Shown here: positions 3,852 to 58,485 of the stretch, piece by piece | Position numbering within the stretch: the first letter of the stretch is position 1 | Layout of the letters: every line of letters begins with the position of its first letter | Assembly: GCF_014201585.1 (NCBI RefSeq) | Contig: NZ_JACHES010000005.1 | Location: 8,248-72,247, forward strand | From: Anoxybacillus tengchongensis | GTDB taxonomy: Bacteria; Bacillota; Bacilli; Bacillales; Anoxybacillaceae | Length of the DNA: 64,000 nt | Direction: 5' to 3' | Position numbers and translations under genes: made by a program | The notes under the pieces: model-generated | Told to the model about the DNA's origin: nothing | What the model saw: the letters and a program-made list of their open reading frames with translations, nothing else | Databases searched by the model: none

Positions 3852-3880
3852 ATGATTACGGACATCCTTGCATACATATG
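3852..3880 (+). promoter_or_regulatory. Candidate sigma-E-type promoter of prkA
   Basis: CATACATA at 3871-3878 resembles the sigma-E -10 consensus CATACAnT, with AATGATTA about 13 nt upstream as a weak -35. prkA is sigma-E controlled in B. subtilis. This is a motif reading only. Confidence 0.35.
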
Positions 3881-3925
3881 GTATTAATCATGACGCTAGA
3901 CATCAAAGGTGGAGGAGGTCCGTGT

Positions 3926-5821
3926 ATGGACATTTTGAAAAAAATACAAAAATATAGAGAAGAAGAGCAAAAATTAAAGTGGGAAGGAACATTTGCCGAG
4001 TACTTAGAAATCGTAAAAGAAAAGCCATGGGTGGCTCAGTCCGCTCATTCTCGCGTTTACAATATGATTAAAGATGCGGGCGTAGAAGAAGTGGATGGAA
4101 AGAAAAAATACAACTTTTTTAGCGGTCAGTTATTTGGGCTTGAAGAAGCGCTAGAGCGGCTTGTAGAAGAATATTTTCACCCAGCCGCCAAACGACTAGA
4201 TGTTCGAAAGCGTATTTTGTTGTTAATGGGACCGGTAAGCGGGGGAAAATCAACGCTTGTGACAATGTTAAAACGAGGACTTGAAGCGTACTCGTATACC
4301 GATCGTGGTGCGGTATATGCGATTAAAGGATGTCCCATGCATGAAGATCCGCTTCATTTAATTCCACACCATTTGCGCGATGAGTTTTATAAAGAGTATG
4401 GCATTCGTATTGAAGGGAACTTATCCCCATTAAACATGATGCGACTTGAAAAAGAATACGGCGGGCGCATTGAAGATGTGATGGTCGAACGCATCTTTTT
4501 CTCCGAAGATAAGCGTGTCGGAATCGGAACGTTCAGCCCATCCGATCCGAAGTCGCAAGATATTGCTGATTTAACAGGCAGCATTGATTTTTCTACGATT
4601 GCTCAATATGGGTCCGAATCGGATCCGCGCGCATATCGTTTTGATGGAGAGCTAAACAAAGCGAATCGCGGTATTATGGAATTTCAAGAAATGTTAAAAT
4701 GCGATGAAAAGTTTTTATGGCATTTGCTTTCTTTGACGCAAGAAGGAAACTTTAAGGCAGGACGTTTTGCGCTTATTAGCGCTGATGAATTGATTGTTGC
4801 CCATACGAATGAAACAGAGTATCGTTCATTTATTGCTAATAAAAAGAATGAGGCACTTCATTCGCGAATTATCGTCATGCCGATACCGTATAACTTAAAA
4901 GTGTCAGAAGAAGAACGAATTTATGAAAAAATGATTCGCGAAAGCGACGTAGCAGATGTGCATATTGCACCACATACGCTACGGGTAGCAGCGATGTTTA
5001 CAATTTTGACGCGATTAAAAGAACCGAAGCGTGGCGATATTGACCTTGTGAAAAAAATGCGTCTGTATGACGGTGAGCTTGTTGAAGGGTTTAATGAAGT
5101 GGATGTCGAGGAGTTGAAAAAAGAATATCCAGACGAAGGAATGAGCGGCATTGATCCACGCTATGTTATTAACCGAATTTCGTCTTGTATTATTCGAAAG
5201 GAAGTGCCGTCTATTAATGCGTTAGATGTATTGAGAGCATTGAAAGAAGGCTTAGAGCATCATCCGTCTATTTCAAAAGAAGATCGGGAACGTTATTTAA
5301 ATTTCATCTCAGTTGCACGAAAAGAATACGATGAAATTGCAAAGCGCGAAGTACAAAAAGCGTTCGTTTACTCGTATGAAGAGTCAGCGAAAACGTTAAT
5401 GGACAATTATTTAGATAACGTAGAGGCATATTGTAACAAAGCGAAAATTCGCGATCCACTAACAGGAGAAGAAATGAATCCAGATGAAAAACTCATGCGG
5501 TCGATTGAAGAACAAATTGGCATTTCCGAGAATGCGAAAAAAGCATTTCGTGAAGAAATTTTAATTCGTATTTCAGCATATGCCCGTAAAGGTCAACGTT
5601 TTGATTATAATTCGCACGAACGGTTGCGTGAAGCGATTCAGAAAAAATTGTTTGCAGACTTAAAAGATATTGTCAAAATTACGACGTCCACAAAAACCCC
5701 TGATGAACAACAACTGAAGAAAATTAATGAAGTGGTTGCTCGATTAATTGATGAATATGGTTATAACTCTACCTCAGCAAATGAATTGCTTCGTTATGTC
5801 GGAAGTTTGTTAAACCGATAA
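3926..5821 (+). CDS. prkA: PrkA AAA+ serine protein kinase/protease
   Basis: A 631-aa protein, the same length as B. subtilis PrkA. The N-terminal AAA+ module carries Walker A GPVSGGKST near residue 105; the C-terminal region is the PrkA kinase-like domain. In Bacillus it acts in sporulation and the transition phase, and a Lon-like protease activity has been reported. The start at ATG 3926 has GGAGGAGG seven bases upstream; an ATG further upstream in the same frame lacks one. It is followed by yhbH, and spoVR lies at 21.8 kb: this is the conserved PrkA-YhbH-SpoVR (enterobacterial YeaG-YeaH-YcgB) set. Confidence 0.96.
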   Translation: MDILKKIQKYREEEQKLKWEGTFAEYLEIVKEKPWVAQSAHSRVYNMIKDAGVEEVDGKKKYNFFSGQLFGLEEALERLVEEYFHPAAKRLDVRKRILLLMGPVSGGKSTLVTMLKRGLEAYSYTDRGAVYAIKGCPMHEDPLHLIPHHLRDEFYKEYGIRIEGNLSPLNMMRLEKEYGGRIEDVMVERIFFSEDKRVGIGTFSPSDPKSQDIADLTGSIDFSTIAQYGSESDPRAYRFDGELNKANRGIMEFQEMLKCDEKFLWHLLSLTQEGNFKAGRFALISADELIVAHTNETEYRSFIANKKNEALHSRIIVMPIPYNLKVSEEERIYEKMIRESDVADVHIAPHTLRVAAMFTILTRLKEPKRGDIDLVKKMRLYDGELVEGFNEVDVEELKKEYPDEGMSGIDPRYVINRISSCIIRKEVPSINALDVLRALKEGLEHHPSISKEDRERYLNFISVARKEYDEIAKREVQKAFVYSYEESAKTLMDNYLDNVEAYCNKAKIRDPLTGEEMNPDEKLMRSIEEQIGISENAKKAFREEILIRISAYARKGQRFDYNSHERLREAIQKKLFADLKDIVKITTSTKTPDEQQLKKINEVVARLIDEYGYNSTSANELLRYVGSLLNR

Positions 5822-5848
5822 AGCATGCCGCACTTGGCATGCTTTGTT
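5820..5848 (+). terminator. Hairpin terminator after prkA
   Basis: AAAGCATGCC pairs with GGCATGCTTT around a 6-nt loop; a short T-rich tail (TGTTTT) follows. The yhbH start is 190 bp further on. Confidence 0.75.
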
Positions 5849-6041
5849 TTATCATCGTAGAAAACAGGCTTGTCCAGCAAAAAAGGTCAGAACAATTTTC
5901 GAAATCATTTGTCAATTTTTTTCGGACGTTGCATAGGATAAAGTAACCAACCATTCATTCATTATTGTTGCAAGCCAACATAGTGTATGCGAGGAAAAAG
6001 GAAAATGTGCAGCATTATTTTACATTGTAGGAGGGGAAAAA

Positions 6042-7202
6042 ATGAGTAGAAACTTCATTGTGTCAAAGGAAGATTGGTCCCTCCATCGAAAAGGCCAAGA
6101 TGATCAAAAACGGCACGAGGAAAAGGTAAAAGAAGCAATTAAAAATAACCTCGGTGATTTAATTACAGAAGAAAGCATCATTATGTCCAACGGTCGCGAC
6201 GTCATTAAAATACCGATTCGTTCGTTAGATGAATATAAAATTCGTTATAATTACGACAAAAATAAACATGTCGGCCAAGGCGATGGGGACAGTCAAGTTG
6301 GTGATGTCATTGCGCGCGACGGTTCTGGTGACGGTCAAAAAGGACCGGGAAAAGGGCAAGGAGCAGGTGACCTGGCGGGGCAAGATTATTATGAAGCAGA
6401 AGTATCCTTAATGGAGCTTGAAGAAGCTTTGTTTAGTCAATTAGAACTTCCTGATTTAAAGAAAAAGCAACATGCTGACCATGTTGTTCAGCATATTGAG
6501 TTTAACGATATTCGCCGAACGGGATTAATGGGGAACATCGATAAGAAAAAAACAATGATGGCTGCCTTTAAACGAAACGCATTAAGTGGCAATCCGAGTT
6601 TTTATCCAATTTATCCGGAAGATTTGAAATTTAAAACGTGGAATGAAGTGATTAAGCCCGATTCGAAAGCGGTTGTTATCGCAATGATGGACACGAGCGG
6701 ATCAATGGGTGTATGGGAAAAATATATGGCTAGAAGCTTCTTCTTTTGGATGACCCGATTTTTACGGACGAAATACGAAACGGTCGATATTGTTTTTATT
6801 GCGCATCATACCGAAGCGAAAATTGTAACAGAAGAAGAGTTTTTTACAAAAGGGGAAAGCGGTGGAACGATATGTTCGTCAGCATATCGAAAGGCGCTTG
6901 AAGTGATCGAAACAAAATACTCACCGACAAAATATAATATTTATCCGTTCCATTTTTCCGATGGCGATAATTTAACGTCCGATAACGCTCGTTGTGTTAA
7001 GCTAGTGCAAGAATTAATGAAGGTATCGAATATGTTTGGATACGGAGAAGTGAATCAGTACAATCGTCACTCGACTCTCATGTCGGCATACAAACATATT
7101 AAGGATGAAAAATTTCGCTATTACATTTTGAAGCAAAAGTCAGATGTGTTACAGGCGATGAGAAACTTTTTCCGAAAAGAAGAACATAAAACATTTGTTT
7201 AA
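6042..7202 (+). CDS. yhbH: YhbH (UPF0229) sporulation protein
   Basis: A 386-aa protein of the UPF0229/YeaH-YhbH family, with a C-terminal von Willebrand A-like fold whose metal-site region reads MMDTSGSMG near residue 220. A Gly/Asp/Gln-rich low-complexity linker (GDGDSQVGD… to GKGQGAGD) lies at about residues 80-115. It is the genetic partner of PrkA and SpoVR; loss affects sporulation in Bacillus. AGGAGGGG precedes the ATG. CATAGTGT about 60 bp upstream could be a weak sigma-E -10. Molecular activity is not known. Confidence 0.94.
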
Positions 7203-7242: not shown

Positions 7243-7331
7243 TTGACAAACGGGTGGGGGTTTTGTAATATACTCATAGAGGTAATGGTAATAAATTATT
7301 TTTTTGCAGTCTAATATACCCTTATGAGTAT
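7243..7331 (+). promoter_or_regulatory. Persulfide-cluster promoter with two ATAC-N8-GTAT operators
   Basis: TTGACA (7243-7248), a 17-bp spacer and TAATAT (7266-7271) form a strong sigma-A promoter. Operator 1, ATACTCATAGAGGTAA (7270-7285), overlaps the -10. Operator 2, ATACCCTTATGAGTAT (7316-7331), lies just before the ribosome binding site of the first rhodanese. Both fit the A/T-flanked G/C-tract palindromes bound by CsoR-family repressors such as CstR, which sense persulfides. No csoR/cstR-like gene is in the window, so the regulator is inferred. Confidence 0.75.
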
Positions 7332-7346
7332 AGAGAGGTGAGAAAG

Positions 7347-7646
7347 ATGAAACATATGCTACCACAAGAAGTGGAGCAACAATTAAAAGAGGGTCGTGCA
7401 CTAAGCATTATCGATGTGCGCGAATATGAGGAAGTAGCCCAAGGTAAAATTCCCGGTGCTCGTCACATCCCGCTTGGCCAACTGCTTGAGCGGATGAATG
7501 AAATTGATAAAAACGAAGAACATATTCTTGTTTGCCGTTCAGGAAATCGAAGCGGTATGGCTTGTCAGTTGTTAGAAAGTTACGGATACCGCGTTGTAAA
7601 TATGACAGGCGGTATGCTTGAATGGACAGGCGAAATTGAACGATAG
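7347..7646 (+). CDS. Single-domain rhodanese
   Basis: A 99-aa sulfurtransferase of one rhodanese domain, with the active-site loop CRSGNRS (Cys63) and the IIDVREYEE motif. It would carry persulfide sulfur on the Cys and pass it to TusA-type carriers. The start ATG 7347 is eight bases after GAGAGG. It is the first gene of the persulfide-handling operon and the nearest gene to the double operator. No signal peptide, so cytoplasmic. Confidence 0.93.
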   Translation: MKHMLPQEVEQQLKEGRALSIIDVREYEEVAQGKIPGARHIPLGQLLERMNEIDKNEEHILVCRSGNRSGMACQLLESYGYRVVNMTGGMLEWTGEIER

Positions 7647-7657
7647 GGGGGAATGGA

Positions 7658-8239
7658 ATGACGATTCACGTCGATCTGGTTGTTGATGCAAAGGGGCTCA
7701 CGTGCCCGATGCCGATTGTTCGCACGAAAAAGGCGATGGAACAGCTACAGCCTGGCCAAGTGCTTGAAGTGCAAGCGACGGATAAAGGTTCACTTGCTGA
7801 TATTCAAGGGTGGGCAAAGAATACAGGGCATCAATATATCGGCACGATTGAAGAAGGTGATGTACTCAAGCATTATCTTCGTAAAGCAAATCCTACAGAA
7901 GTAAAGGAAGAAGCAAAATATCCTCACGTTGTTTCTTTAGAGGAGCTGCAAAAGAAAGTAGAAAACAATGAACAAGTATTTATTTTAGATGTGCGTGAGG
8001 AAGCCGAGTATGTATTTGGTCATATTCCGGGAGCATATCATATCCCGCTCGGACAATTAGAAGAGCGATTAAATGAATTAAATAAAGATGAAACAATTTA
8101 TGTCATTTGCCGAACAGGTAATCGCAGCGATTTAGCTGCGCAACAACTTACTGAAAAAGGATTTACAAGTGTATTTAACGTCATTCCAGGTATGACACAA
8201 TGGAAAGGAACAATGACTAAAGGAGGAAATGAACAATGA
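7658..8239 (+). CDS. TusA-rhodanese fusion (CstA/YrkF-like)
   Basis: A 193-aa fusion. Residues 1-75 are a TusA/SirA sulfur carrier with the CPMPIVRTKKA motif (Cys16); residues 90-190 are a rhodanese with active-site loop CRTGNRS (Cys151). This is the arrangement of S. aureus CstA and B. subtilis YrkF, which move persulfide sulfur during sulfide stress. AGGGGGGAATGG precedes the ATG by a few bases. Its stop overlaps the next start (ATGA), implying translational coupling. The rhodanese part is similar to the preceding gene, suggesting duplication. Confidence 0.93.
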   Translation: MTIHVDLVVDAKGLTCPMPIVRTKKAMEQLQPGQVLEVQATDKGSLADIQGWAKNTGHQYIGTIEEGDVLKHYLRKANPTEVKEEAKYPHVVSLEELQKKVENNEQVFILDVREEAEYVFGHIPGAYHIPLGQLEERLNELNKDETIYVICRTGNRSDLAAQQLTEKGFTSVFNVIPGMTQWKGTMTKGGNEQ

Positions 8240-8631
8240 AAAAACGTGTAGCGATTATTGCAGCAAATGGTGGTTTATTTGACGCATATAAGGTGTTTAA
8301 CATTGCAACAGCAGCAGCAGCAACAGAAGCAGAGGTAGCTATTTTCTTTACATTCGAAGGATTAAATTTAATTCATAAAGAAGCATATCAACAATTGCCA
8401 CTTCCAGAAGGAAAAGAGCAAATTCAACAAGGATTTGCCCAAGCAAACGTTCCATCTATTCCAGAGCTTGTAGGCATGGCGCAAGAAATGGGTGTGAAGT
8501 TTATTGCTTGCCAAATGACGATGGATGTGATGGGATTAACAAAAGAACATTTTGTCGATGGTATTGATGTTGGTGGAGCAGTGACATTCCTTGATTTTGC
8601 GAAAGATGCTGACATCACGTTAACATTCTAA
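8236..8631 (+). CDS. DsrE/DsrF-like family protein (YrkE-like)
   Basis: A 131-aa DsrE-fold protein of the COG2210 group. The conserved Cys92 lies in FIACQMTMDVMG, and the C-terminal DGIDVGGAVTFLDFAKDADITLTF is typical. DsrE proteins receive or hand over persulfide sulfur together with TusA, and B. subtilis yrkE is next to yrkF in the same way. The start overlaps the previous stop by four bases. Cytoplasmic. Confidence 0.9.
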   Translation: MKKRVAIIAANGGLFDAYKVFNIATAAAATEAEVAIFFTFEGLNLIHKEAYQQLPLPEGKEQIQQGFAQANVPSIPELVGMAQEMGVKFIACQMTMDVMGLTKEHFVDGIDVGGAVTFLDFAKDADITLTF

Positions 8632-8642
8632 GGAGGAAGAAC

Positions 8643-8870
8643 ATGAAAGCCGATCTTCTCGTTGATGCAAAGGGACTTGCGTGTCCACTGCCGATCGTTC
8701 GTACGAAAAAAGGAATGGACACATTACAATCTGGTCAAGTGTTGGAAATTCATGTTACAGATAAAGGAGCTAAAAACGACTTATCTGCATGGGCAAAATC
8801 AGCTGGTCATGAAATGATCGATATGGTCGAAGAAGGAGACGTACTAAAATTTTGGATTCGTAAAGCGTAA
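8643..8870 (+). CDS. TusA-family sulfur carrier (YrkI-like)
   Basis: A 75-aa stand-alone TusA protein with the CPLPIVRTKK motif (Cys near residue 14). It is close in sequence to the N-terminal domain of the fusion encoded at 7658. It would carry one persulfide sulfur between the rhodaneses and other acceptors. AAGGAGGA precedes the ATG. It is followed by a strong hairpin before the exporter gene. Confidence 0.93.
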   Translation: MKADLLVDAKGLACPLPIVRTKKGMDTLQSGQVLEIHVTDKGAKNDLSAWAKSAGHEMIDMVEEGDVLKFWIRKA

Positions 8871-8871
8871 C

Positions 8872-8898
8872 AAGCATCGGGCATATGTCCCGATGCTT
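8872..8898 (+). terminator. Intercistronic hairpin between tusA-like and tauE-like genes
   Basis: A perfect 10-bp stem, AAGCATCGGG with CCCGATGCTT, closes a 7-nt loop. No T run follows, so it may be an attenuator or an mRNA stabiliser rather than a full terminator. Confidence 0.6.
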
Positions 8899-8918
8899 CA
8901 TATAAGGAGTGAATGAGC

Positions 8919-9695
8919 ATGGCCATCGGTTTTATTATTACAATTTTTTTAATTGGATTTATCGGTTCGTTTATTTCAGGAATGGTTGGAATTGGCGGAT
9001 CGATTATTAAATATCCGATGTTGCTTTACATCCCACCATTGCTTGGTTACGCTGCATTTAGCGCCCATGAAGTATCAGGAATTAGCGCCATTCAAGTATT
9101 GTTTGCGACGATTGGAGGCGTTTGGGCGTACCGTAAAGGTGGGTATTTAAATAAAACGTTAATTATTTATATGGGTACCAGTATTTTAATTGGTAGTTTC
9201 ATTGGTGGTTATGGTTCGAAATTAATGAGCGAAGGCGGCATTAATATCGTTTATGCGGTGTTAGCGACGATTGCTGCGATGATGATGTTCGTTCCGAAAA
9301 AAGGAATTGATAATATTCCACTTGATCAAGTCACATTCAATAAATGGCTTGCAGCAGCGTTAGCATTCATTGTCGGAGTGAGCGCTGGCATTGTTGGTGC
9401 CGCAGGGGCGTTTATCCTTGTACCAATTATGCTTGTTGTATTAAAAATCCCAACACGTATGACGATCGCTACATCATTAGCGATTACATTTATTTCATCC
9501 ATTGGGGCAACTGTTGGAAAAATTACAACAGGTCAATTTGATTTTTGGACCGCATTTATTATGGTTGTTGCAAGCTTAATTGCTTCTCCTATTGGGGCGA
9601 ATGTTGGTAAAAAGGTAAATACAAAAGTATTACAGTTTATATTAGCTGCACTGATTGTCGCAACAGCGATAAAAATTTGGTTGGATATTTTGTAA
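8919..9695 (+). CDS. TauE/SafE sulfite (sulfonate) exporter family permease
   Basis: A polytopic membrane protein of about 258 aa with some eight hydrophobic helices and the family [13 protein letters not shown] loop near the N-terminus, repeated as [13 protein letters not shown] in the second half. TauE proteins of persulfide operons (S. aureus cst locus, B. subtilis YrkJ) are thought to export sulfite made by persulfide dioxygenase. I prefer ATG 8919, nine bases after AAGGAG; ATG 8913 would be only three bases from it. Confidence 0.9.
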
Positions 9696-9701
9696 AAACT
9701 G

Positions 9702-9743
9702 TTGAAAAGTTCATCCTTTATGTTATAATACTTATAGGGGTAT
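9702..9743 (+). promoter_or_regulatory. Promoter with ATAC-N8-GTAT operator before the glutaredoxin-like gene
   Basis: TTGAAA (9702-9707), 16 bp, TATAAT (9724-9729). Operator ATACTTATAGGGGTAT (9728-9743) overlaps the end of the -10 exactly as at 7270. It gives the second half of the cluster its own persulfide-responsive start. Confidence 0.75.
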
Positions 9744-9777
9744 ATAAAATACCGAAACATAAAGGAGGAATGACCCA

Positions 9778-10011
9778 ATGAAACAAGTAACTGTATATAC
9801 GACAACAACATGTCCGTATTGTACGTTATTGAAAAACTTTTTAGATGAGCGTGGCATCCCATTTAAAGAAGTAAATTTACATCAACATCCTGAGGCTGTT
9901 GATTATGTTATTCGCTCAACAGGACAAATGGGCGTGCCGCAAACAGAAATTAATGGGCGTTGGGTTATTGGATTTGATCCACAACGAATTATGCAATTGT
10001 TACAACAATAA
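9778..10011 (+). CDS. Glutaredoxin-like protein (NrdH type)
   Basis: A 77-aa glutaredoxin/NrdH-fold protein with the redox motif CPYC (Cys12, Cys15), a conserved GVPQTEING (cis-Pro) and a GFDPQ loop. It probably reduces disulfides or persulfides made during sulfide stress, with bacillithiol or thioredoxin reductase as electron source. AAAGGAGG precedes the ATG. It is in the persulfide cluster between two ATAC-N8-GTAT sites. Confidence 0.92.
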   Translation: MKQVTVYTTTTCPYCTLLKNFLDERGIPFKEVNLHQHPEAVDYVIRSTGQMGVPQTEINGRWVIGFDPQRIMQLLQQ

Positions 10012-10028
10012 TTTTTTTATCTATAAAA

Positions 10029-10044
10029 ATACCCTATAAGGTAT
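10029..10044 (+). promoter_or_regulatory. ATAC-N8-GTAT operator before the persulfide dioxygenase fusion
   Basis: ATACCCTATAAGGTAT is the most symmetric of the five copies found in this window. It lies in the 52-bp gap upstream of the gene at 10064. A good promoter is not obvious here, so it may control an overlapping start or act as a roadblock. Confidence 0.65.
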
Positions 10045-10063: not shown

Positions 10064-11197
10064 ATGGCAGTATATGCATTAACAGCACAACAAATTAATG
10101 AGATGATTGTAAATAAAGAGCCGTTTTTCTTATTTGATGTTCGCAATGAATCAGACTTTGCAGATTGGAAAATTGAAGGAGAACACATTGAGTATTTAAA
10201 CATTCCTTACTTTGAATTAATTGATGGCGTTGAATCCGTGTTAGAGCGTTTGCCAAAAGACAAAAAAATTGTTGTCGTTTGTGCTAAAGAAGGTTCTTCT
10301 ATGATGGTTGCTGACATGCTTGCTGAAAAAGGATTAGAAGTGTTTTATTTAAAAGGCGGCATGAAAGCGTGGAGCGAGTATTTATACCCTGTTGTTGTAT
10401 ATCAAGATAACGATATAAAAGTGTATCAATTTATTCGCGTCGGTAAAGGTTGTCTTTCTTACATGGTCGTATCAGGAAAAGAAGCGTTAATCGTCGATCC
10501 ATCTCGATTTATTGATGTGTATAAAGAAGTTGCTCAAAAAGAAAACGTAGCGATTACACATATCGTTGATTCACATTTACATGCTGACCATATTTCTGGC
10601 GGATATGAATTAGCAAAACAAACAGGTGCGACATATTACTTAATGAAGAGTGAAGGTGCCGTATTTGAGTTTGAACCGCTAGAAAACCATGATCGCATCG
10701 AATTTGAAAAAGTAAGTTTAGAAGTATTAGCCATTAAAACACCAGGTCATACACCGGGTAGTGTGTCATTCTTCGTAAACAACAAATTGTTGTTCTCTGG
10801 CGATACGATTTTCGTCAGCGGTCTTGGCCGACCAGACTTAGGCGGAAAAGCGCGTGAATGGGCAAAAGATTTATACGACACAGTATACAACAAAGTCGCA
10901 CAAATTGCTGATGATGTCATTGTTCTTCCTGCACACTATGCAAACTTCGATCAAGAAGTTAATGAACAAGGATATATTGGAAATATATTAGGAAACATTC
11001 GTCAAATGAATGAAATTATGCAGGGGAAAACAGAAGAAGAGTTTGTTGAACATGTGGCGCAATCTGCATCTTCTGAAACACCGCCAAACTTTGAAGACAT
11101 TATCGCCATTAACCGCGGTGTAAAAGATGCTACACCAGAACAACAACAAGAACTTGAAATCGGTCCAAACCGTTGTGCGGTTCACCATACACACTAA
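10064..11197 (+). CDS. Rhodanese-persulfide dioxygenase fusion (YrkH/CstB-like)
   Basis: A 377-aa fusion. Residues 1-105 are a rhodanese domain with Cys73 in an unusual loop, CAKEGSS. Residues 115-330 are a metallo-beta-lactamase fold of the ETHE1/persulfide dioxygenase type: HLHADH (171-176), TPGHTPGS, FSGDTIF and PAHYANF supply the iron ligands. It would oxidise low-molecular-weight persulfide to sulfite, which the TauE-like permease could export. S. aureus CstB has the dioxygenase first and the rhodanese last; here the order is reversed. GGAGAGG precedes the ATG, and a strong terminator follows. Confidence 0.93.
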   Translation: MAVYALTAQQINEMIVNKEPFFLFDVRNESDFADWKIEGEHIEYLNIPYFELIDGVESVLERLPKDKKIVVVCAKEGSSMMVADMLAEKGLEVFYLKGGMKAWSEYLYPVVVYQDNDIKVYQFIRVGKGCLSYMVVSGKEALIVDPSRFIDVYKEVAQKENVAITHIVDSHLHADHISGGYELAKQTGATYYLMKSEGAVFEFEPLENHDRIEFEKVSLEVLAIKTPGHTPGSVSFFVNNKLLFSGDTIFVSGLGRPDLGGKAREWAKDLYDTVYNKVAQIADDVIVLPAHYANFDQEVNEQGYIGNILGNIRQMNEIMQGKTEEEFVEHVAQSASSETPPNFEDIIAINRGVKDATPEQQQELEIGPNRCAVHHTH

Positions 11198-58058: not shown

Positions 58059-58101
58059 TTGACAAATCGTCGAAAACGGGTTAATATACCCATATACGTA
58101 T
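58059..58101 (+). promoter_or_regulatory. Promoter with the fifth ATAC-N8-GTAT operator
   Basis: TTGACA (58059-58064), 17 bp, TAATAT (58082-58087), with ATACCCATATACGTAT (58086-58101) overlapping the -10. Spacing and overlap match the promoter at 7243 nearly base for base (TAATATAC in both). Confidence 0.75.
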
Positions 58102-58116
58102 TTAGGAGGAGAATAT

Positions 58117-58485
58117 ATGGGCACATGGATCAATGTTGTTCTAATTATTTTGCTTATTTATTTTGTTGCAACAAAAATGTTACCAACAAAAGGTGTGGAA
58201 CATATTACACCAGATGAGTTAAAAGAAAAATTAAAACAAACGAAAGACCGTCAATTTATTGATGTACGCACACCAGCGGAATATCGTGCGCGCAACATTC
58301 GCCAATTTAAAAACATTCCGCTTCATCAATTGGCTGATAAACTACATGAGCTCGATCGTGAAAAAGAGACGATCGTTATTTGTCAAAGTGGTATGCGCAG
58401 CAATCAAGCGACCAAAATATTAGCAAAAAACGGATTTAAACGTGTCGTGAATGTACGTGGCGGCATGAATGCTTGGAACGGGTAA
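58117..58485 (+). CDS. Membrane-anchored rhodanese
   Basis: A 122-aa protein with one N-terminal helix (residues 5-20) and a rhodanese domain with active-site loop CQSGMRS (Cys89) and FIDVRTPAEYRARNI. It resembles YqhL-type rhodaneses. The domain could lie on either membrane face; the few flanking charges (KMLPTK after the helix) suggest inside. AGGAGGAG precedes the ATG. The promoter carries the persulfide-cluster operator. Confidence 0.92.
   Translation: MGTWINVVLIILLIYFVATKMLPTKGVEHITPDELKEKLKQTKDRQFIDVRTPAEYRARNIRQFKNIPLHQLADKLHELDREKETIVICQSGMRSNQATKILAKNGFKRVVNVRGGMNAWNG

Follow-up and report, generated by a model that had tools for sequence, protein, structure and literature searches.

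Which protein reads the 16-bp inverted repeat ATAC-N8-GTAT that recurs in a sulfur gene cluster of Anoxybacillus tengchongensis? The cluster lies in a stretch of 64,000 nucleotides (contig NZ_JACHES010000005.1, positions 8,248 to 72,247, forward strand), here called the window. With the 29 contigs of the 2.73 Mb genome numbered from C1 onwards, the window is C5:8248-72247. An earlier note on this DNA placed four such sites in the cluster, two of them at the end of a −10 box, and proposed a persulfide regulon under a repressor encoded elsewhere. All four sites were found where that note had put them, the one at 7270 with one mismatch, and the two −10 boxes (TAATAT and TATAAT) do run into ATAC. 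A fifth, exact match near the far end of the window is probably the additional site counted there. The window contains no CsoR-family gene: the genome's two are on contigs C1 and C6, and we are highly confident that ATAC-N8-GTAT, in its best form ATACCC-N6-GTAT, is the operator through which a CstR-type repressor encoded on C6 controls a persulfide regulon. Direct observation covers where the sites lie and how they are conserved, the regulator gene with its residues, and the same motif beside characterised cstR and yrkD genes. The system is a CstR regulon, of a known kind; its scattered layout and a methyltransferase among its members are the new parts. The sites, promoter elements and adjoining genes of the window are as follows.

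7243-7248 and 7266-7271, forward strand: −35 box TTGACA and −10 box TAATAT, 17 bp spacing; the −10 box overlaps operator 1
7270-7285, forward strand: operator 1, ATACTCATAGAGGTAA, one mismatch (second half-site GTAA)
7316-7331, forward strand: operator 2, ATACCCTTATGAGTAT, exact; the rhodanese start lies 15 bp further on
7347..7646, forward strand: rhodanese (PF00581)
7658..8239, forward strand: TusA-rhodanese fusion, yrkF-like (PF01206 and PF00581)
8236..8631, forward strand: DsrE-like protein, yrkE-like (PF13686)
8643..8870, forward strand: TusA, yrkI-like (PF01206)
8919..9695, forward strand: TauE/SafE sulfite exporter, yrkJ-like (PF01925)
9702-9707 and 9724-9729, forward strand: −35 box TTGAAA and −10 box TATAAT, 16 bp spacing; the −10 box overlaps operator 3
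9728-9743, forward strand: operator 3, ATACTTATAGGGGTAT, exact
9778..10011, forward strand: glutaredoxin-like protein (PF00462)
10029-10044, forward strand: operator 4, ATACCCTATAAGGTAT, exact
10064..11197, forward strand: rhodanese and metallo-beta-lactamase fold protein, yrkH-like (PF00581 and PF00753); by its sequence a probable persulfide dioxygenase
58059-58064 and 58082-58087, forward strand: −35 box TTGACA and −10 box TAATAT, 17 bp spacing; the −10 box overlaps operator 5
58086-58101, forward strand: operator 5, ATACCCATATACGTAT, exact, upstream of the next gene
58117..58485, forward strand: rhodanese with a hydrophobic N-terminus, a membrane anchor by inspection (PF00581)

At 7270, 9728 and 58086, and likewise at the cstR site described below, the first two bases of ATAC are the last two of the −10 box. 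The −35 hexamers of the promoters with operators 1, 3 and 5 match TTGACA at 6, 5 and 6 positions. When one mismatch was allowed, the window held 36 matches to ATAC-N8-GTAT; dinucleotide shuffles of the window gave a mean of 22.4 (standard deviation 4.4), and none of 100 attained 36. Five window matches are exact, four of them upstream of sulfur genes and one (34177) within an open reading frame (ORF).

The genome contains two PF02583 genes (C1:410839 and C6:20058-20324). The C6 gene encodes an 89-aa CsoR-family protein that matches the CsoR/RcnR family PF02583 over residues 7-86 with 82.2 bits (cut-off 22.8). It carries Cys33, Asn58 and Cys62 and has no copper-ligand histidine, Asn58 standing at the His position. 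This residue set is common to all 38 named relatives and to Staphylococcus aureus CstR, in which C31 and C60 are the sensing cysteines and with which the C6 protein is identical at 41 of 86 residues. In the PDB its best match by sequence is 7mq1, an entry deposited under the name CsoR, to which both cysteines align, and records of A. flavithermus and A. mongoliensis hold a protein that is 100% identical. Judged by these residues, which differ from the Cys-His-Cys set of a copper sensor, the C6 protein is CstR-type and not a copper CsoR. The promoter of this gene, hereafter cstR, contains operator ATACTGATAAGGGTAT 15 bp before the start; the site overlaps the −10 box, and TTGACA lies 18 bp upstream. 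The expected repressor gene outside the window thus exists, and a hit of the pattern falls before it.

Compared with the ORFs of 80 codons or more, the 45 exact ATAC-N8-GTAT sites of the genome divide into 27 within an ORF and 18 intergenic ones. Eleven of the 18 precede sulfur or redox genes or cstR. These are 7316, 9728, 10029 and 58086 of the window, the tandem sites C7:68898 and C7:68922, and C7:82694, C6:130600, C4:159438, C9:61366 and C6:20340. The narrower form ATACCC-N6-GTAT, with an ATACCC or a GGGTAT half, occurs at 10 genome sites, and all 10 precede sulfur or redox genes or cstR; it misses operator 1 (7270) and the methyltransferase site. Exact sites mark ten promoters, spread over five contigs (C4, C5, C6, C7 and C9): those of the yrk-like cluster, glutaredoxin, the dioxygenase, two further rhodaneses, the CoA-disulfide reductase operon, the SBF-OsmC-SQR genes, an Fe-S/cytochrome b pair, cstR and an S-adenosylmethionine (SAM) methyltransferase. 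The units outside the window are these.

C7: SBF transporter, OsmC, SQR-like protein, small protein, and metallo-beta-lactamase with two rhodanese domains; tandem sites
C4: rhodanese-like protein with a hydrophobic start, CoA-disulfide reductase with a rhodanese domain, and rhodanese
C6: rhodanese with a lipoprotein-like start
C7:81622: Fe-S protein with a Tat signal, and cytochrome b561
C9: SAM methyltransferase

Next after the metallo-beta-lactamase gene of the SBF-OsmC-SQR unit come nreB-, nreC- and tauE-like genes, which, like the small protein, were assigned by inspection. SQR begins 140 bp behind OsmC, and TAAGGGAAATCCCCTA lies in that gap. The same element precedes SQR in genomes G000, G001 and G006 (locus L105, 4412-4427; C7 in this genome), and nreB/nreC-like genes follow SQR. 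An 813-aa gene with CoA-disulfide reductase, rhodanese, TusA and DsrE parts was considered as a further member and is doubtful: its site has one mismatch (7/8 genomes), and a Rex-like inverted repeat lies closer to the gene. That repeat, TTGTGATACAATTCACAA (locus L106, 5264-5330; C7:95263-95330 in this genome), is the same or one base off in 8/8 genomes. Set beside the S. aureus Rex consensus, as given in the accessible part of PMC2883068, it suggests that a putative persulfide reductase is under NADH control.

An independent check was made on rhodanese genes that had played no part in defining the pattern. The genome has 13 PF00581 matches, one below the cut-off, which were grouped into transcription units by strand and adjacency; with the window sites at 7270-10044 and the one at 58086 excluded, six rhodanese-encoding units remained. 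Three of the six have an exact site at most 60 bp from the first start (C6:130644, the SBF-OsmC-SQR genes and the CoA-disulfide reductase operon), and one more has a one-mismatch site (C7:92821). For a 150-bp window and the 42 remaining exact sites of the 2.73 Mb genome, the chance of three or more is 2.5e-7. With the rhodanese behind SQR no longer counted as a gene of the SBF promoter, the result is two of six (chance 8e-5). The expectation that hits would fall before sulfur genes elsewhere in the genome was thus borne out.

Conservation was followed in nine genomes of the genus, this one included, by anchoring each upstream region on its gene. An exact site is found at the same place in 9/9 genomes for the rhodanese at 7347, glutaredoxin, the dioxygenase, the rhodanese at 58117, cstR and the CoA-disulfide reductase operon, and operator 1 is identical in all nine. 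The methyltransferase gene is present in six genomes and the Fe-S gene in four, with exact sites at 6/6 and 4/4. SQR was found in five of the nine; G000, G003 and G008 have tandem sites before SBF, and G005 has SBF with tandem sites and no SQR match. The promoter rows for SBF (four genomes), the lipoprotein-like rhodanese (five) and the Fe-S gene (three) were biased, because those loci had been chosen for holding the pattern. The later searches for SQR, the Fe-S gene and the 813-aa gene are free of that bias; SBF and the lipoprotein-like rhodanese were not searched again. A scripted comparison of site columns with flanks was set aside, as its search expressions fixed the half-sites and it recovered the 7316 site in only 2/9 genomes.

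These data bear on whether CstR controls just the yrk-like cluster of the window and its own gene, the other sites being chance matches or relics. In its favor, the direct action of S. aureus CstR was judged to be confined to a single operon (PMC5480029, in its accessible part), and SQR, the Fe-S gene and the methyltransferase are missing from part of the genus. Chance matches or relics fit poorly with sites that are kept wherever their gene is kept, at the CoA-disulfide reductase operon and 58117 as well as at the methyltransferase and Fe-S genes, and the first gene of the CoA-disulfide reductase operon stands with its operator beside cstR in other genera. We therefore consider so narrow a regulon improbable.

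The second PF02583 gene raises another alternative, that the copper sensor CsoR and not CstR binds these sites. C1:410839 encodes a CsoR with the Cys-His-Cys set, and the gene directly 3' of it looks, on inspection, like copA, with two GMTCAAC metal-binding motifs. CstR is a paralogue of CsoR and its half-sites are similar; the csoR promoter contains ATACCC-N9-GTAT. All ten promoters of the sulfur regulon have the N8 spacing instead, and it is N8 sites that adjoin cstR and yrkD in the S. aureus and Bacillus licheniformis records discussed below. A comparison of 41 family genomes points the same way. An intact cstR-type gene is present in 38; G016 and G039 have none, and that of G034 is broken. 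ATACCC-N6-GTAT occurs 2 to 11 times in each of the 38 (mean 5.7, reversed control 3.2; paired Wilcoxon, P = 2e-5, the genomes being related to each other). The three genomes with a CsoR-like match and no intact cstR have 0, 0 and 1 sites (G016, G034 and G039), and they also lack the dioxygenase gene. Binding by CsoR is accordingly very unlikely. As a clean negative control these three genomes are weakened by that lack; among nine genomes searched, the dioxygenase gene was not found in them nor in G031, which bears cstR. Regulator and targets seem to be lost or to decay together, a pattern consistent with CstR control and not independent evidence for it. The G034 remnant is a cstR with stops at G034:C6:101184-101401, in a genome with neither an ATACCC-N6-GTAT site nor a dioxygenase match.

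Several observations weigh against a CstR operator of this range. By count, the bare pattern is less frequent than its reversed control (45 versus 70 sites), and ATACCC-N6-GTAT exceeds its own only slightly (10 versus 7). Seven of the 18 intergenic exact sites, judged from ORF translations alone, are not at sulfur genes, and the bare pattern therefore gives false positives. No site was found at two of the six rhodanese units (C1:124552 and C8:2917), and the 813-aa gene has a one-mismatch site only. In G001 and G006, SQR stands without SBF and without an exact site before it. SQR may therefore have its own promoter, as TAAGGGAAATCCCCTA in the OsmC-SQR gap, which resembles what we take to be an NreC box, also suggests. 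Outside Anoxybacillus and Thermolongibacillus, an exact site is found no further than 150 bp from cstR in only 7 of the 31 named relatives. Finally, the absence of sites from the three genomes lacking an intact cstR is weak evidence because the dioxygenase gene is missing there too.

The signal lies in the position of the sites and in the ATACCC/GGGTAT half, not in counts. The bare pattern was dropped for genome searches as too loose. Relaxed forms fared no better: ATACCCNTATNNGTAT with two mismatches gave 39 and 39 matches versus 44 and 32 for the reversed pattern, with no excess, and ATACCC-N6-GTAT with one mismatch gave 41 and 44 versus 54 and 70, so that degenerate sites cannot be selected by count. 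The 8-base form, offered in the earlier note as a ready search pattern, is not one; ATACCC-N6-GTAT discriminates far better by position. The fear that the pattern would be as common at random positions as at sulfur genes was justified for the counts and not for the intergenic positions. The sites might, on this account, be AT-rich palindromes that belong to promoters, or they might mark another regulator, such as an ArsR, MarR or Rrf2 sulfur sensor; several do sit on AT-rich −10 boxes, the bare pattern is common and the excess of the longer one is small. Yet the ATACCC/GGGTAT form is limited to ten sites, all of them before regulon genes and cstR. The half-sites stay while the inner bases vary between species at the glutaredoxin (9/9 genomes) and methyltransferase promoters, and the motif flanks cstR and yrkD in the S. 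aureus and B. licheniformis records. We give this explanation as little weight as the one involving CsoR.

Control by CstR is therefore the reading that we follow. That the protein binds the sites, responds to persulfide and frees the promoters is inferred, and so are the ends of the operons and what each target does. Reduced CstR (Cys33, Cys62) would bind the operators and, because several of them overlap a −10 box, would block RNA polymerase; cstR would repress itself. As in the S. aureus protein, reactive sulfur species would cross-link the two cysteines between neighbouring subunits, and the cross-linked repressor would leave the DNA. The rhodaneses, TusA/DsrE carriers, persulfide dioxygenase, glutaredoxin, CoA-disulfide reductase, SBF-OsmC (possibly with SQR), Fe-S/cytochrome b pair and SAM methyltransferase would then be switched on.

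At E<=1e-30, 27 copies of the methyltransferase gene were found in 25 of the 41 family genomes. Eighteen lie within 3 kb of cstR, and each of the other nine has an exact site 17 to 24 bp from its start. An uncharacterised methyltransferase is thereby tied to reactive sulfur in 27/27 copies, which makes its substrate a direct question. In G012 and G040, two of the three genomes that have the more distant methyltransferase copy, a rhodanese gene lies 3' of it. The protein is a class I SAM methyltransferase that scores above the cut-offs of PF08241 and PF01209 and far below those of the NCBIfam UbiE models. There is no conserved cysteine among 13 aligned copies, and the predicted structure of its Mesobacillus and Cytobacillus relatives has a mean pLDDT of 60. 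An in-frame TGA in three of the genes was considered as a selenocysteine codon and rejected, as it aligns with the ordinary protein end. That it S-methylates sulfide or a thiol is a reasonable guess and no more. The guess is drawn from MddH and MddM2, H2S/methanethiol S-methyltransferases of the UbiE family whose genes are induced by sulfide or methanethiol (PMC12904073, accessible part); they are possible functional analogues, likened by description and not by direct sequence comparison. A CRISPR array in which GTTTGTATCGTACCTATGAGGAATTGAAAC occurs at least 14 times (locus L050, 14-924; C9:59513-60423) lies about 1 kb from the methyltransferase gene.

A cstR gene beside its targets is usual, although not strictly defining, for CstR; here the two are apart. 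Linkage was examined by tblastn (E<=1e-6) with 12 sulfur proteins in 8 kb around 38 named cstR loci. A sulfur gene was found within this distance at 16 loci, the linkage of L083, L084 and L087 resting on a single weak TusA-rhodanese hit each. The remaining 22 had no hit, among them 7/7 Anoxybacillus/Thermolongibacillus loci. ATACCC-type sites occur in all 16 linked loci and in these seven, whereas the other 15 unlinked loci (11 Halobacillus, one Thalassobacillus and three others) have none. At 14 of the 38 loci, cstR has an exact N8 site no more than 150 bp away. The Halobacillus and Thalassobacillus loci (L085, L086, L088-L093, L095, L097, L100 and L103) form a set of their own, with a close CstR relative and neither a sulfur-gene hit within 8 kb nor an ATACCC-type site. 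In Brevibacillus and Paenibacillus, cstR clusters (L077, L079, L082, L094 and L102) hold several sites of the ATACCC type close to genes for TusA-rhodanese, dioxygenase and DsrE, and the motif therefore marks such clusters outside the family. Plasmid loci of Priestia (L300) and Cytobacillus (L301) have one and two exact sites.

Mesobacillus, Cytobacillus and two family genomes share the order methyltransferase, operator, rhodanese-like gene with a hydrophobic start, cstR. That rhodanese-like gene (43-46% identical) heads the CoA-disulfide reductase operon on C4 in this genome; C9 carries the methyltransferase, C6 carries cstR and C5 the yrk-like genes. The operator of the rhodanese-like gene is letter-identical to the Cytobacillus and G037 operator in five of the nine genus genomes and one base off here. 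The cluster thus appears to have scattered together with its operators, if the direction of change is read correctly. A fuller scenario, which we regard as possible rather than probable, is that a CstR cluster ancestrally at one locus broke apart in the Anoxybacillus lineage, its fragments keeping or gaining operators. The outcome would be a genome-wide persulfide regulon under an unlinked, self-repressing CstR, including an undescribed methyltransferase of UbiE-like type, which would use S-methylation to detoxify sulfide or thiols derived from persulfide. This would be a natural case of a regulatory cluster breaking up while operators stay with the pieces, and it suggests that CstR is able to govern scattered genes besides a neighbouring operon.

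Directly 5' of the sulfur cluster, at window 3878-7202, a 647-aa ORF is followed by a 386-aa ORF; we take the pair to be prkA-yhbH.

What began as four sites has become a regulon with a candidate regulator and ten promoters, in a genus for which the searched literature holds no work on CstR. That literature, which leaves out most subscription journals, yielded no account of a CstR regulon that belongs to Anoxybacillus or Geobacillus or includes such a methyltransferase. The closest known system is that of S. aureus, in which CstR has the Cys/Asn/Cys residues found here and two sites of the same motif, ATAC-N8-GTAT, lie beside cstR. Its targets are rhodanese, TusA, TauE, SQR and dioxygenase genes. 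In the S. aureus plasmid record pRM27 the spacer beside cstR has two exact N8 sites, ATACCTATGAGGGTAT and ATACCTATAGGGGTAT, and the rest of a 10-kb stretch has none; the neighbour across that spacer is annotated as DsrE-like and is presumably cstA. The single operon described in the accessible part of PMC5480029 contrasts with the lone cstR and the ten promoters on five contigs found here.

In a B. licheniformis plasmid record, one exact site precedes a yrkD-like match and two follow it. YrkD binds two intergenic regions, IR1 and IR2, in vitro, and binding is lost when the predicted sites are mutated or after YrkD is treated with elemental sulfur, according to the accessible part of PMC9918477. 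IR1 and IR2 would be the regions before and after yrkD. The same part of that source describes an YrkD/NreBC cluster with the gene types found here, nreB/nreC-like genes following SQR in both (by inspection in our case); its 11 genes form one cluster that starts with yrkD, whereas ours are divided among C4, C5, C6, C7 and C9. CstR of Enterococcus faecalis controls two rhodaneses and a CoA-persulfide reductase, just as the CoA-disulfide reductase-rhodanese operon carries a site here. It does so, however, from one cst-like operon, and the accessible part of PMC9405070 mentions no methyltransferase, in contrast to this genome.

The layout itself has a parallel in TTHA1953 of Thermus thermophilus (PMC10318464, accessible part). 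That CsoR-family repressor differs in binding TACNNTACNNNNGTANNGTA, in controlling Sox genes and in showing no response to NaHS in vitro. Like the repressor proposed here, it has a sulfur regulon that is dispersed and remote from the gene encoding the repressor, and a methyltransferase is among the genes at the promoters that it binds.

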